Below, piece after piece: positions 3,898 through 23,076 of a DNA stretch of 37,955 bases (position 1 is the first letter of the stretch; every line of letters begins with the position of its first letter). This DNA comes from Minisyncoccota bacterium (GTDB lineage Bacteria > Patescibacteriota > Minisyncoccia > UBA6257 > 2-01-FULL-56-20): positions 1 to 37,955 of the forward strand of contig JANWIW010000004.1 in assembly GCA_025449695.1 (NCBI GenBank). Direction: 5' to 3'. Made by a program: the position numbers and the translations under genes. The notes under the pieces are model-generated. The model had not been told where the DNA came from, searched no databases, and saw only the letters and a list, made by a program, of their open reading frames with translations.

Positions 3898-3925
3898 TGT
3901 CATTCCCGCGCAGGCGGGAATCAGG
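3898..3925. repeat. 28-bp REP-like inverted repeat, left copy
   Basis: TGTCATTCCCGCGCAGG and the rest of this 28-mer are the exact reverse complement of 4236-4263. Each copy is itself palindromic around GCGCAGGC. Together the two copies frame the GIY-YIG gene, and this copy overlaps its stop codon. Confidence 0.9.
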
Positions 3926-4223
3926 GCGAGCATTCATCAATGAAATTACAGTAGAGATCGCGCCATTCAGGGTTCATGCTCTCGATGAGCCGTATCTTCC
4001 ACTCCCTGTTCCATTTCTTGATCTGCTTTTCTCGTTTAATGGCTGACTCCACATCTGAGGTACTTTCAAAATGCACGAGAATACTCACGCCGTACCACGA
4101 GGTAAAGCCTTTAAAGATATGTAACTTATGCTCGCCTACTCTCTTTAAAAGATCGCTGGTTACGCCCGTGTAAAGCACTCGGTGCGGCTCGTTCGTAAGG
4201 ATATAAACGTAGTAGGTCTTTAT
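3921..4223 (-). CDS. GIY-YIG endonuclease-like protein, start codon apparently ATA
   Basis: This is a small single-domain GIY-YIG nuclease-like protein (UPF0213/YhbQ type, about 100 aa). It shows TYYVYILTNEPHRVLYTGVT at the N-terminus (the GIY-YIG core), then SAIKREKQIKKWNREWKIRL and MNPEWRDLY, as in this family. The track starts at an internal GTG, but the conserved N-terminus extends upstream to IKTYYVYIL, where the family normally has M-K. The codon there is ATA at 4223, with an in-frame TAG further up and no ATG between. The gene therefore uses AUA, starts internally, or has decayed. It lies exactly between perfect 28-bp inverted repeats, which suggests a mobile cassette. Confidence 0.8.
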   Translation of the reverse strand: MKTYYVYILTNEPHRVLYTGVTSDLLKRVGEHKLHIFKGFTSWYGVSILVHFESTSDVESAIKREKQIKKWNREWKIRLIESMNPEWRDLYCNFIDECSP

Positions 4224-4235
4224 TCCTCGACCCTA

Positions 4236-4263
4236 CCTGATTCCCGCCTGCGCGGGAATGACA
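4236..4263. repeat. 28-bp REP-like inverted repeat, right copy
   Basis: CCTGATTCCCGCCTGCG and the rest are the exact reverse complement of 3898-3925. Confidence 0.9.
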
Positions 4264-12631: not shown

Positions 12632-12733
12632 GAGAATCTGGAATTTAGAATCTGGAATCTGGATGTTTGTAATTCATAGCTACTATGTATTTGCATTCAC
12701 TAGATTCTAGATTCTAGATTCCAGATTCTAGCT
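12632..12733. repeat. GAATCT-word palindromic element, copy A (smc-rnc)
   Basis: Tandem GAATCTGGAAT words on one side face ATTCTAGATTCCAGATTC words on the other, forming a long imperfect hairpin with an AT-rich tip. The rnc TAG stop lies inside it. The same word family occurs at 13427-13492 and twice in the 16S gene. Confidence 0.85.
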
Positions 12734-13417
12734 ACCGTATCTTTCGAGTGCCTTCCGCGCCGCTTCTAGCTCGGCTTCCTGCTTGGAGTTGCCGCTGCCC
12801 GTGGCCGCGATCGCGCCGGCGAACTTCACCCCGATCGTGAACATGCGCTGGTGGGCAGGGCCGGATTCGGACACCACCTCGTAAGTGGGCGTCTCCCGGA
12901 AACGCTCCTGGATCAGCTCCTGCAGCGCGCTCTTCGGGTCCTTGTAGCTCTTGGTACGCACGATCTCTTCCACCCTTCCCATGAGGAATTGATCCACGAA
13001 CTTCGATACCGCCTCGAAGCCCTGGTCGAGATAGATCGCCCCGACGAGGGACTCGAAAGCATTCGCCAGGATGACCTCCTTGGCCCGCTGATTGTCGCCG
13101 CGCTCGCCTTTGGACATGAGCACAAACTCCTCCATGCCGAGCTCCGCGGCGATCTTGCCCAATATCTGATAGTTCACGAGCGCCGCGCGGACCACGGTGA
13201 GCTGGCCTTCCGGGAAATCCGGATAGAGGCGGTAAAGCTTCTCCGAGACCGCGAGCTCAAGCACCGCGTCGCCCAGGTATTCCAGGCGCTCATTGTGCGG
13301 CACCGGCCAGTTCGGCTGCTCGTTCAGATAAGAGCGATGCGTGAGGGCTTCCTTCAAGAGGTTCAGGTCGCGGAAGCGGAAACTGATGGTCGTTTCGAAA
13401 GGAGTGATGTCTTTCAT
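12728..13417 (-). CDS. rnc: ribonuclease III
   Basis: RNase III cleaves double-stranded RNA, including rRNA precursors and long stems. The 229-aa product has the RIIID signature HNERLEYLGDAVLELAVSEK with the metal-binding Glu/Asp residues, a second acidic cluster in VILANAFESLVGAIYLDQG, and a C-terminal dsRNA-binding domain (ALQELIQERFRETPTYEVV to SGNSKQEAELEAARKALERYG). It is a normal-length, apparently intact enzyme, relevant because the 16S insert at 22541-22856 is bounded by a 21-bp stem that RNase III could cut. Stop is TAG within palindrome copy A; no Shine-Dalgarno precedes the ATG. Confidence 0.95.
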   Translation of the reverse strand: MKDITPFETTISFRFRDLNLLKEALTHRSYLNEQPNWPVPHNERLEYLGDAVLELAVSEKLYRLYPDFPEGQLTVVRAALVNYQILGKIAAELGMEEFVLMSKGERGDNQRAKEVILANAFESLVGAIYLDQGFEAVSKFVDQFLMGRVEEIVRTKSYKDPKSALQELIQERFRETPTYEVVSESGPAHQRMFTIGVKFAGAIAATGSGNSKQEAELEAARKALERYGS

Positions 13418-16844: not shown

Positions 16845-16967
16845 TGTTTTGCCGGAGAGGATACCCGCCTTCGCCAAGGCTTCGGCAGGGCACAATCCCA
16901 CTTCGCTCTTCGAGCTTCGCGGGGCACAACAAAATCTAAGCCTCGATTACTCGGCAAGATTTTCTAG

Positions 16968-17051
16968 TGCGCGGGAGAGGATTCGAACCTCCAAGCCCTT
17001 GCGGGCGCTACCACCTCAAGGTAGTGCGGTTGCCAGTTTCGCCACCCGCGC
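16968..17051 (-). tRNA. tRNA-Leu (anticodon GAG)
   Basis: The 84-nt sequence folds as a class II tRNA. The acceptor GCGCGGG pairs with CCCGCGC and A is the discriminator. The anticodon arm is CTACC-TTGAGGT-GGTAG with GAG at 34-36. The variable arm is long (CGCCCGCAAGGGC) and the T-arm is AGGTTCGAATCCT. It reads CUC leucine codons. CCA is not encoded. A LAGLIDADG gene ends one base upstream of its 5' end, so the tRNA is probably cotranscribed with it or relies on processing. Confidence 0.95.
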
Positions 17052-17052
17052 G

Positions 17053-17721
17053 TTAATCCAAGTGCTTGCCGATTATAGCGAAAGCCCGCTGAACTTTCAA
17101 ACGCTTGCGGCTTAAGCATATAACTGCGGGTGAATATAGGCGCTTGAGTAATGTGATGGATTCTTGTTTCGCATATCTCAACTGGTAATACTGGTAGGTT
17201 TGCGTATTGGATCGCCCATGATTTCGCGAAATATGACCGCGCAAGCCTGAAAGCGCTAAGACTTTTGCCCGCAACCATTCGATATGGGTCAAGCTTGCGG
17301 ACGTAAAACTGGTGTAGAACATGAAACTGGAACGCCAGCGCCAGTCCCAATATGAATAGAATGAGCCATCTCCATCAAAGTGACCGCGCAAGAAATCGAA
17401 GAAATATGGATCCGGCACATGTACAGACCCGATAATTTTAGATTTCGCGGGCATCAGGCCAATATCAAGGAGGAATTTGTAGAAATTCACGTCGCCAAAT
17501 TGAATACGTGTGTGTTGAGTGGCAGTAAATCCGGAGGTTTTATGACCGATTTTCACTTCTATACCCAGACATCGCATAAGATTTCTGAGTTGTTCGATAT
17601 CATCCGAGGTGAAATCGATATGTCTTCTGTCCTTGGAAAGACAACCGTCGGTAGTTAACAATCCTATTGCGTACGCAAACTCAGACGACCATTCTATTTT
17701 GACCTTAGAGAGAGGATGCAT
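17053..17721 (-). CDS. LAGLIDADG homing endonuclease abutting tRNA-Leu
   Basis: The 222-aa protein has two LAGLIDADG helices: FAYAIGLLTTDGCLS near residue 16 and FFDFLRGHFDGDGSF near residue 107. Each ends in the acidic metal-binding residue (TDG, GDG), so it is a monomeric two-motif enzyme. Such proteins cut long DNA targets and spread their own gene. The TAA stop is one base from the 5' end of tRNA-Leu, and no tRNA half or intron core is visible upstream, so it looks free-standing rather than intronic. Codon use is more AT-rich than its neighbours, consistent with recent arrival. No clear Shine-Dalgarno. Confidence 0.85.
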   Translation of the reverse strand: MHPLSKVKIEWSSEFAYAIGLLTTDGCLSKDRRHIDFTSDDIEQLRNLMRCLGIEVKIGHKTSGFTATQHTRIQFGDVNFYKFLLDIGLMPAKSKIIGSVHVPDPYFFDFLRGHFDGDGSFYSYWDWRWRSSFMFYTSFTSASLTHIEWLRAKVLALSGLRGHISRNHGRSNTQTYQYYQLRYAKQESITLLKRLYSPAVICLSRKRLKVQRAFAIIGKHLD

Positions 17722-20400: not shown

Positions 20401-21283
20401 ATTATCTTCCCTAAAACAGGGAATGGATGTTCCCACCGCACGGACGGATTTCCCGTATGCGGCGAGCTCAATGCATCTGCTGCTTCAGTTGCAGCAATCT
20501 TTCCAAGCCTTCCGGAGTTAGATGTTGGCCTTTCTCGATAGCTTCGAGCAAGCCGCAGAAGATCCGGAAATCCTTCAGCTTTGAAGGGAACCGAAGGTGA
20601 TTTTTCATGAAGAAAGGAATGATTATTTTCAGGAGATCGCGTCGGTTGAAAACCTCGTATCGGTAACAATCTTGATGGTTTCGCCGACTATCTCTCTGGA
20701 AATACACTTCCCCGCATCTGAAATACTCCCTCAAATCTTCCAGTATCTCTTTATCTTTCTCGACAAGCTTGACATAGAACCTAGGTTCTACTCGCGCTCG
20801 CCGAATATATTCCGTGCTTGAGGTCGGGCTGCGAATAAAAGCAGTAAAACTGCCTTCGCCGTCAACCAAACCGACTATATAATCTGCTGTCAACATTGAG
20901 TGAGTGCCTTCCTCTGGCAGTGTGCCAAAGTACTATGACTCAGCTGACTTCTGGTGCTGCGTCAGTTTTAACTATATTATCCTCCAAAGCCGCGTTCCAA
21001 AACGAGGCTTGGGGATAAACAGACACCAGATCTCCATAGGTCAGTTACAAGGCTTTTCCTTGCATCCCGGCGCGGTTCCTTTTTTGATCTTCGCCATGCT
21101 CACCGCCTATCCATGGCTCGATCTCCGCTCCACGCTATCGTGGCATGCCGGGCTGCGGTTTGCGTCCGGATCCTCCACCGCAATTCTCACGAATTGCGGC
21201 TATCCTTCCGCTACGCTCCAGTAGACGCACTGAAGGGGCTGATTTTAACAGCCTAGTCTTGCAACCTGCTACGCGCTTTTATT
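20401..21283 (-). mobile_element. group II-type intron in 16S rRNA carrying a LAGLIDADG gene
   Basis: The 883-nt insertion interrupts GTACTCAC|CGCCCGT between E. coli positions 1399 and 1400. Near its 3' end is a domain V-like hairpin (20466-20432): 10-bp lower stem, 2-nt bulge, 4-bp upper stem ACGG/CCGU, GAAAU loop. A domain VI-like stem (TTCCCT/AGGGAA) follows and the intron ends in AT, matching the group II AY rule. CAGAAGTCAGCTGAGTCATA before the ORF matches a block seen in bacterial group II introns. A GTGCG lies at 21230, 53 nt inside the 5' boundary. A hairpin loop CGTGAG (near 21190) could pair with the exon CTCAC as EBS1-IBS1. The ORF is a LAGLIDADG protein, not a reverse transcriptase. 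Confidence 0.75.
20468..20896 (-). CDS. intron-encoded LAGLIDADG homing endonuclease
   Basis: The 142-aa single-motif protein has YIVGLVDGEGSFTAF near the N-terminus, the LAGLIDADG helix ending in the acidic residue, and the downstream EPRFYVKLVEKDKEILEDLR and NRRDLLKIIIPFF features of this family. One motif implies a homodimer. The ATG at 20896 follows AGAGGAAGG by about 9-12 nt. The TGA stop abuts the intron's domain V-like hairpin, the expected position of a domain IV ORF. It probably promotes homing of the intron into intronless 16S genes; a role in splicing is possible but unsupported. Confidence 0.88.
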   Translation of the reverse strand: MLTADYIVGLVDGEGSFTAFIRSPTSSTEYIRRARVEPRFYVKLVEKDKEILEDLREYFRCGEVYFQRDSRRNHQDCYRYEVFNRRDLLKIIIPFFMKNHLRFPSKLKDFRIFCGLLEAIEKGQHLTPEGLERLLQLKQQMH

Positions 21284-21533
21284 GTGAGTACAGGACTCGA
21301 GAACGTATTCACCGTGGTATAGCTGACCCACGATTACTAGCAATTCCAGCTTCATGGGGGCGAGTTGCAGCCCCCAATCCGAACTAGGACGCGGTTTAAG
21401 GGATTAGCTCCACCTTTCGGTTTGGCAGCCCATTGTCCGCGCCATTGTAACATGAGTGTAGCCCCGGGCATCAGAGGGCCATGCTGATTTGACGTCATCC
21501 CCTCCTTCCTCCCAGCCTGAAGGGCGCGAATAC

Positions 21534-21610
21534 AAGAATCTGGTATCTAGAATCTGGAATCTGGTAGGAACGTGTCCTTGCTAGATTCTAGATTCAAGAT
21601 TCTAGATTCT
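21534..21610 (-). repeat. GAATCT-word palindrome, copy D, in the tip of 16S helix 39
   Basis: The rRNA stem CCCAGCCT/AGGCTGGG (helix 39, V7) is extended by AGAATCTAGAATC words facing GATTCCAGATTCTAG words, with a CACG-containing tip. It is the same family as the smc-rnc and rnc-nusB spacers. Confidence 0.87.
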
Positions 21611-21703
21611 GCTCCCGCTCTTTAGGCTGGGCAGTCCTCCGTGACACTTGTAACACGGAGCAGGGGTTGCGCTCGTTACCCCAATTAAGGGAACGCCTCA
21701 CGG

Positions 21704-21735
<32 letters not shown>

Positions 21736-21862
21736 CTTGGGGTCCCTTGCGGGAAAGGCAATGTTTCCATCGCCGGTCTCCAAGCATTTCAAGCCCGGGT
21801 GAGGTTCTTCGTTCATCGTCGAATTAAACCTCATGTTCCACTGCTTGTGCGAGTCCCCGTCT

Positions 21863-21894
<32 letters not shown>

Positions 21895-22522
21895 TCCCAG
21901 GCGGCCTGCTTAACGCGTTAGCTCCGCCACTCCGAGGGTCGATACTCGAAACAGCAAGCAGGCATCGTTTAGGGCGTGGACTACAAGGGTATCTAATCCT
22001 TTTTGATCCCCACGCTTTCGTGTTTCAGAGTCAGGTACGCGCCAGCGAGTTGCCTTCGCCTTTGGTGTTCCCCACGATATCAACGGATTTCACCCCTACA
22101 CCGTGAGTTCCATGCACCTCTCACCTCCTCCAGTCCGATCGTATCTCCGGCACTTCCACCGTTAGGCAGTGGGCTTTAACCAGAGACGCATCGGACCTCC
22201 TACACGCGCTTTACGCCCAATAAATCCGGATAACGCTTGTGGTCTACGTATTACCGCTGGTGCTGGCACGTAGTTACCAACCACTTTCCGCTAGGTGATC
22301 ACCGAAGTTTCTGCCTAGCTACCGCAGTTTACGACCCGAAGGCCTTCATCCTGCACGCGGCGTCGCTCGATCAGACTTTCGTCCATTGTCGAATATTCTC
22401 GACTGCTGCCTCCCGTAGGAGTACGAGCCGTGTCTCAGTCTCGTCGTTGGGGGTCAGGCTCTCACCTCCCCTACCGGTCATAGCCTTGGTAAGCCGTTAC
22501 CTTACCAACTAGCTGATCGGAC

Positions 22523-22819
22523 CTAAGCCGATCTCAGAGTGCCAGCCTCACTTTTGACCTTCTGCAGTAAGCTTCTGTGGATTCTTTTCATGAGCTCGTG
22601 CTTTGAGCTGCCATGATGCTTAAGTCTCGATTCACGCTTTCGCGCATCACTCTCATTGCGATACGCTTCAGCGTAAACCAATTTCCATTCTCCGGAACTA
22701 CGCCGAGTTGACGGGTTCAGGTTCCGTTTATGAGAATCGAGACGCTTCGCTAAATCCTTCGTGAAACCAATGTAGATTTTGTGATTAACCGAGTGTTGGA
22801 TGATGTAGACCACATACAT
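22523..22819 (-). CDS. GIY-YIG endonuclease encoded inside the 16S V2 insert
   Basis: The protein (98 aa from the ATG at 22819) starts MYVVYIIQHSVNHKIYIGFT, the GIY-YIG core, followed by KDLAKRLDSHKR and EAYRNESDARKRESRLKHHG, like small UPF0213-type nucleases. The track start at 22843 adds eight residues read from the flanking stem. The last ~12 codons also run through the right-hand stem and into mature 16S sequence before the stop. It probably nicks or cuts an intron-less 16S allele and drives spread of the insert. Confidence 0.85.
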   Translation of the reverse strand: MYVVYIIQHSVNHKIYIGFTKDLAKRLDSHKRNLNPSTRRSSGEWKLVYAEAYRNESDARKRESRLKHHGSSKHELMKRIHRSLLQKVKSEAGTLRSA

Positions 22820-22856
22820 TTCATCATCGTAGCACAAGGTCAAAAGTGAAGCTGGC
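22541..22856 (-). mobile_element. stem-flanked intervening sequence in 16S V2 region
   Basis: Arms GCCAGCCTCACTTTTGACCT (22541-) and AAGGTCAAAAGTGAAGCTGG (22836-) pair over 21 positions with one mismatch, enclosing about 275 nt with the GIY-YIG ORF. The site is the variable helix near E. coli 200. The layout matches rRNA intervening sequences that are cut out by RNase III and leave a fragmented rRNA, rather than a self-splicing intron; no group I or II core is seen here. Confidence 0.8.
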
Positions 22857-23076
22857 TTTACCGGTGAAGGACCATCGGGTATTACCCCGCCTTTCGGCGG
22901 ACTATTCCCGGCTCTGAGGTACGTACTAGGGTGTTACTAACTCGTTCGCCGCTAAACTATCCAATCCGCATTCTTGATGTAATCGCAAATCCTTCAAAGA
23001 TAGTTCCGCTCGACTTGCATGCCTTATCCACGCCGCCAGCGTTCATCCTGGACCAGGATCAAATCCTCTAATATAA

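Follow-up and report, generated by a model that had tools for sequence, protein, structure and literature searches.

What kind of element places a GIY-YIG endonuclease gene inside a 16S rRNA gene is the question raised by a 37,955-nt stretch of DNA (hereinafter, the window) from a bacterium of the phylum Minisyncoccota. The interrupted gene scores 1204.6 bits against Rfam RF00177 and is the only 16S copy detected by a search of its own genome (a 984-kb draft in 37 contigs, estimated to be 93% complete); it spans 1843 nt compared with 1533 positions of the model, and the excess of 310 nt consists of a single insert (Table 1). The observations described below lead us to interpret this insert, with a probability of approximately 0.7, as a mobile, non-splicing GIY-YIG hairpin cassette that represents one copy of a family of small cassettes.

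Table 1. Features of the interrupted 16S rRNA gene and of the gene for the candidate processing enzyme (positions in the window)
Feature	Position	Strand	Basis or remark
16S rRNA gene	21232..23074	-	Rfam RF00177 and search of own genome
Inserted cassette, approximately 310 nt, replacing the h10 tetraloop	22544..22853	-	Comparison with uninterrupted loci L012, L013 and L019, and with L039 (element ends in common, located in h9)
5' stem arm	22832..22856	-	Outer 3 nt belong to host h10
3' stem arm	22541..22565	-	Outer 3 nt belong to host h10; also encodes K-S-E-A-G of the ORF tail
GIY-YIG ORF, 98 aa	22523..22819	-	ATG matches family starts; alternative upstream in-frame TTG start at 22843 possible
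GIY-YIG catalytic domain	22604..22819	-	PF01541, alignment and model fold
ORF stop codon, within mature 16S sequence	22523..22525	-	
RNase III gene, candidate excision enzyme	12728..13417	-	PF14622, PF00636, dsrm

The two arms of the insert, 25 nt each and separated by 266 nt, are 92% complementary, and in the RNA the outermost 21 base pairs of the stem are unbroken, with one U.G wobble included. The insert region folds with z = -6.0 relative to shuffled sequences, none of the 100 shuffles being equally good. In uninterrupted relatives from the same family, h10 has the form AAAG(C/T)C-GCAA-G(G/A)C, compared with AAAGCC[AGC...GCT]GGC in the window; from this comparison it follows that the insert takes the place of the h10 tetraloop, the host helix running on into the cassette arms, and that the outermost three base pairs of the stem are those of host h10. 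Because the host GCC/GGC pairs with the cassette, the boundary of the element proper is uncertain by about 3 nt. The helix designations (h10 and the like) are presumed, being assigned from general knowledge of 16S rRNA structure. The description of this locus in the first-pass annotation, namely a GIY-YIG gene within a long stem inserted in the 16S gene, is thus borne out, and the gene is intact.

The encoded protein matches PF01541 with E = 2.2e-16 and 60.3 bits, compared with a curated cut-off of 22.6, and residues Y5, Y16, G18, R26, H30 and E63 are invariant in an alignment with 15 relatives. No clear Shine-Dalgarno sequence is found upstream of the ATG. As had been claimed, the C-terminus is encoded in part by the host: the stop codon lies 16-18 nt beyond the stem, and the last ~11 residues are specified by the stem and the mature rRNA. 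An AlphaFold model obtained with an 8-row alignment (the single-sequence prediction is poor, pLDDT 49) shows the GIY-YIG topology, E-E-H-E-H-H, whereas residues 87-98, which correspond to the tail encoded by the 3' arm and the mature rRNA, are disordered. In sequence, UPF0213 proteins and Slx1 are the nearest relatives of solved structure, and the nearest solved folds are those of UPF0213, Slx1 and I-TevI, with modest Foldseek E-values. The small GIY-YIG proteins of the UPF0213/YhbQ group (PDB 1zg2, 1ywl) are the closest solved relatives by both sequence and fold, although the respective records describe stand-alone proteins.

Purifying selection acts on the GIY-YIG reading frame. The dN/dS value is 0.04 for the L107/L108 pair and likewise for L046/L054, the frames are open in 126 of the 138 related GIY-YIG genes, and the comparison of the window copy with L039 yields a low pN/pS of 0.24 with synonymous sites saturated; purifying selection thus is demonstrated for several copies. 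The proteins most closely related to that of the window derive from widely separated lineages of the Candidate Phyla Radiation (CPR), namely Harrisonbacteria, Peregrinibacteria, Doudnabacteria, Terrybacteria and Wolfebacteria, and are encoded in 16S, 23S and non-rRNA sites, as expected under horizontal spread. Resolution of the protein tree is weak (8 of the 131 inner branches starred), and the tree accordingly serves solely as a hint that insertion sites mix among close relatives. A phage origin was considered and rejected, no relatives being found in IMG/VR by a profile search with the alignment or in a phage collection.

The key question is whether the arms belong to the rRNA site or to the gene. 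Among the relatives from the same order and the genome itself, an inverted repeat with a score of at least 14 hugs 28 of the 35 GIY-YIG genes, compared with 0 of the 331 offset positions in the same loci. In the phylum-wide set, which is a sample of the best-scoring matches to a profile whose seed contained seven RNA-gene copies, such arms are present at 71 of the 138 related genes versus 15 of the 3,106 control positions; the approximately one half of the profile matches that lack arms belong mostly to other subfamilies. Pairwise DNA comparison, in which the 500-nt flanks show no other similarity, delimits the unit of homology. The L107 and L108 cassettes of one genome are 89% identical over 312 bp, with the homology ending exactly at both arm tips (offsets of zero). 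The same pattern, homology up to the arm tips and unrelated sequence beyond, is seen between L158 and L176, both within one genome; between L086, located immediately 3' of a 16S gene, and L088, located in P3 of RNase P RNA; and in L094/L113, L055/L058, L044/L057 and several more pairs. The window element itself has a counterpart in L039, from Ca. Harrisonbacteria, a different family of the same order, with the same 15-nt arm tips (CCAGCTTCACTTTTG and CAAAAGTGAGGCTGG) and a protein core that is 71% identical, but with the cassette in h9 instead of h10. These comparisons establish that the arms are part of the mobile unit. The first-pass annotation had taken the stem to be a peculiarity of an rRNA intervening sequence, a view that is not supported because members of the same family bear arms outside rRNA and these accompany the gene when it moves. 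Of three GIY-YIG genes found on plasmids outside Patescibacteria, all from another subfamily, one has a good arm pair, one a moderate pair and one none.

The insertion sites, determined within RNA genes from the flanking sequence, are recurrent. In the Rfam-based analysis, 28 copies are found inside structured RNA genes. The 16S copies occupy h6 (four), h9/h10 (three, the window included) and h17 (two), with a further 16S case, L050, interrupted by the end of a contig; the 23S copies are located in H63 (four) and elsewhere (three); and the RNase P RNA copies are found in P3 (ten, one of them antisense) and at other positions (two). Given that structured RNA genes comprise well under 1% of such a genome, the 20% of the copies that they harbor represent a large excess, albeit in a sample of top-scoring matches to a profile seeded in part with RNA-gene copies. 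Arms with a score of at least 12 are present in 27 of these 28 copies, and within one genus the L062 cassette sits exactly at the position of a short P3 hairpin in L198. Thus, across many lineages, a small set of peripheral helices in 16S, 23S and RNase P RNA demonstrably hosts cassettes again and again. The copies outside RNA genes adjoin the 5' ends of tRNA genes, promoters or start codons, or lie within pilin genes.

Several of these non-RNA loci merit separate mention. L076 and L083 adjoin tRNA genes; a second copy of the tRNA 5' end (e.g. GGGCCGGTAGC) is present beyond the cassette, and the tRNA is left intact. In L098 and L103, the cassette is inserted in a pilin gene at the point of prepilin cleavage, and the ORF stays in frame across the right arm (K-S-G-A-G in L103) and on into the pilin sequence GFTL(I/L)EV, so that prepilin peptidase might release the pilin from the fusion. 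Subfamilies with the arms CCCCGTAGTAG... or ATCCCGTTAGAG... (L060, L063, L133, L138, L151, L158, L163, L171 and L176) apparently are inserted at the start codons of host genes.

If the stem functions as RNA, it should tolerate G.U pairs on the host strand but not A.C pairs, which are equivalent to G.U on the opposite strand. Among the non-Watson-Crick arm pairs of the 27 sense copies in RNA genes, G.U outnumbers A.C by 28 to 1, whereas the ratio in the 60 other arm-bearing copies is 37 to 23 (Fisher p = 3e-4; binomial p = 1e-7 for the RNA-gene group); the contrast persists when counted by locus (p = 8e-4), all p values being approximate because related copies share ancestry. The strand dependence extends to L123, the cassette inserted in P3 in the antisense orientation relative to RNase P RNA, where the only mismatches in the ORF orientation are A.C, which corresponds to G.U on the strand of the RNase P RNA. 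The two arms of a copy are on average 96% paired, compared with 40% between the arms of different copies, in a set that was selected for pairing. The 28 to 1 ratio indicates that in RNA hosts the stem is maintained as a helix of host-strand RNA; RNA pairing is thereby shown to be under selection in RNA genes, and we conclude that, in these genes, it is selected to preserve the structure of the host RNA.

This result bears directly on the strongest alternative, a DNA transposon or insertion sequence with terminal inverted repeats, for which the GIY-YIG protein would be the transposase and the arms would be DNA termini that pair as RNA only incidentally. The inverted ends move with the gene, which is the behavior of such an element; G.U and A.C pairs are balanced outside RNA genes; and target duplications of 9-12 bp are detectable at some tRNA, pilin and promoter loci, with direct repeats of at least 8 found in 8.3% of the cases compared with 1.0% of control pairings. 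However, no target-site duplication is present at the window insertion or in the other RNA-gene copies, the inner arm sequence is highly variable between copies while the pairing is retained, and the strong G.U bias in RNA hosts reflects selection at the RNA level. We regard this alternative as unlikely, albeit worth keeping in mind.

The next possibility, and in our assessment an improbable one, is a classical rRNA intervening sequence (IVS), that is, a stem-loop excised by RNase III in which the GIY-YIG ORF is present by chance and the stem belongs to the rRNA site. The insertion in a peripheral rRNA helix, the long complementary ends and the lack of an intron core are all typical of such sequences, as in Coxiella and Salmonella (PMC4990558), and the selection for pairing on the RNA strand is also compatible. 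Nevertheless, the same arm architecture is found at non-rRNA loci of the gene family, with homology that ends at the arm tips, and the part that is conserved across sites is the ORF; a full account in these terms fails because the arms travel with the gene outside rRNA. The interpretation of the insert as an IVS excised by RNase III is accordingly plausible but incomplete. The RNase III gene noted previously is indeed present in the window; RNase III genes are found in nearly all bacteria, and therefore its presence carries little weight. By analogy with the known IVSs, among which that of Coxiella is excised by RNase III, excision without ligation can nonetheless be reasonably expected (PMC4990558). 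Since the stop codon is located outside the stem, RNase III cleavage within the stem would leave a non-stop message.

A degenerate group I or group II intron that still splices is very improbable. GIY-YIG is a classic family of intron-encoded nucleases, and CPR rRNA genes are rich in introns according to the main text of a recent survey (Tsurumaki et al., 2024; PMC11270868), but no group I or group II intron is detected in the window at the Rfam threshold, which agrees with the lack of a conserved ribozyme core inferred earlier; the insert is only ~310 nt long, nearly all of it filled by the ORF and the arms; and the same text reports that the GIY-YIG inserts in rRNA are all non-intron. An assembly or binning artefact, which the fragmentation of the draft genome might suggest, is effectively refuted by the homologous cassette in the 16S V2 region of an independent assembly (L039/L068) and by the continuous, normally scoring flanking 16S sequence.

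The preferred reading, a mobile hairpin cassette, thus has to be placed among the known systems. The main text of the CPR survey describes GIY-YIG ORFs, all located in insertions other than group I or group II introns, sparsely distributed over several sites, and judges them to lie outside homing because the respective rRNA sites are poorly conserved (PMC11270868). Given this catalogue, the window element belongs to a known class, being an instance of non-intron insertions in peripheral stem-loops of 16S and 23S rRNA, and an ORF of this type is not unusual for such elements, contrary to the first-pass annotation. In contrast to the cassette family, inverted arms, mobility of the unit and copies in RNase P RNA or other genes are not part of the account given in that main text. 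The IVSs of Coxiella and Leptospira that carry S23p ORFs similarly hold an ORF in the loop of a stem of ~20-28 bp in an rRNA helix (PMC4990558). However, the S23p product is a four-helix protein, these IVSs are described in that source from 23S only, and the ORF is decaying in Coxiella; in the cassette family the ORF class is conserved and copies are found outside rRNA as well. The window ORF gives no match to S23p and matches GIY-YIG type families alone. GIY-YIG homing endonucleases (I-TevI) and the free-standing seg genes of phages share the catalytic fold and residues and probably the role as the driver of spread, but the cassettes have no intron and no DNA-binding extension and bring their own hairpin arms. 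REP/RAYT elements, in which a small nuclease gene is associated with palindromic ends, provide an analogy only: RAYTs are HUH tyrosine nucleases, and identity with these systems was rejected because the nucleases are not homologous. A literature search, covering main texts and a minority of the subscription papers, retrieved no report of a unit with hairpin ends, of its mobility, of its insertion in RNase P RNA or of the strand-specific pairing signal. This widespread family of hairpin cassettes thus appears to be undescribed.

Under the cassette reading, the unit consists of a GIY-YIG endonuclease gene (~85-100 codons) between two inverted arms of ~13-25 nt, and one copy would have inserted into the h10 loop of 16S rRNA. 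With the arms stacked on the host helix, a single long hairpin, with the gene as its loop, would hang at the surface of the ribosome, and the surrounding rRNA would be expected to fold normally. By analogy with known homing nucleases, the encoded enzyme may drive the spread of the cassette by cutting uninterrupted targets, through homing or a related repair-copying process. Host RNase III could then trim the stem without rejoining, yielding a two-piece 16S rRNA; otherwise, the hairpin would be retained. Were RNase III to cut, the RNA released would lack a stop codon, so that the protein would have to be produced from the uncut precursor or via ribosomes rescued from the non-stop message. The broader proposition, on which we consider the odds to be even, is that GIY-YIG hairpin cassettes constitute a class of mobile, non-splicing elements not described before, which enter hairpin loops in structured RNAs that are essential (16S, 23S and RNase P RNA), as well as other conserved sites, and whose own RNA stem leaves the host RNA functional, such that RNA structure accomplishes what splicing does for introns. 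If correct, this proposition would link the origin of rRNA intervening sequences with the role of the numerous tiny GIY-YIG genes of CPR bacteria and would offer a concrete mobile unit whose ends are defined, together with landing sites that recur and a strand-specific signature open to testing at the bench, the presence of a coding cassette in P3 of RNase P RNA being especially unexpected. It would also imply that primers and models for 16S rRNA can fail to recover such lineages, whose rRNA may be in pieces.

The window and its genome contain further features of note. A second GIY-YIG gene (4011-4214), which belongs to a different subfamily, is located in L008 (approximately 3899-4263, minus strand) and is hugged by perfect 28-bp inverted arms (TGTCATTCCCGCGCAGGCGGGAATCAGG); L007 and L009, two copies at other genomic positions, have similar arms on either side. 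On the minus strand, a LAGLIDADG_1 ORF (E 3e-14; 20468-20896) is found ~340 nt downstream of the 3' end of the 16S gene, and a LAGLIDADG_3 ORF (17053-17721) abuts the gene for tRNA-Leu(gag) (16967-17051). No 23S gene is present on the contig of the window; on contig C13 of the same genome (2245-7750; L208/L209), the 23S gene matches in two pieces ~1.4 kb apart, which suggests that it holds further large insertions.
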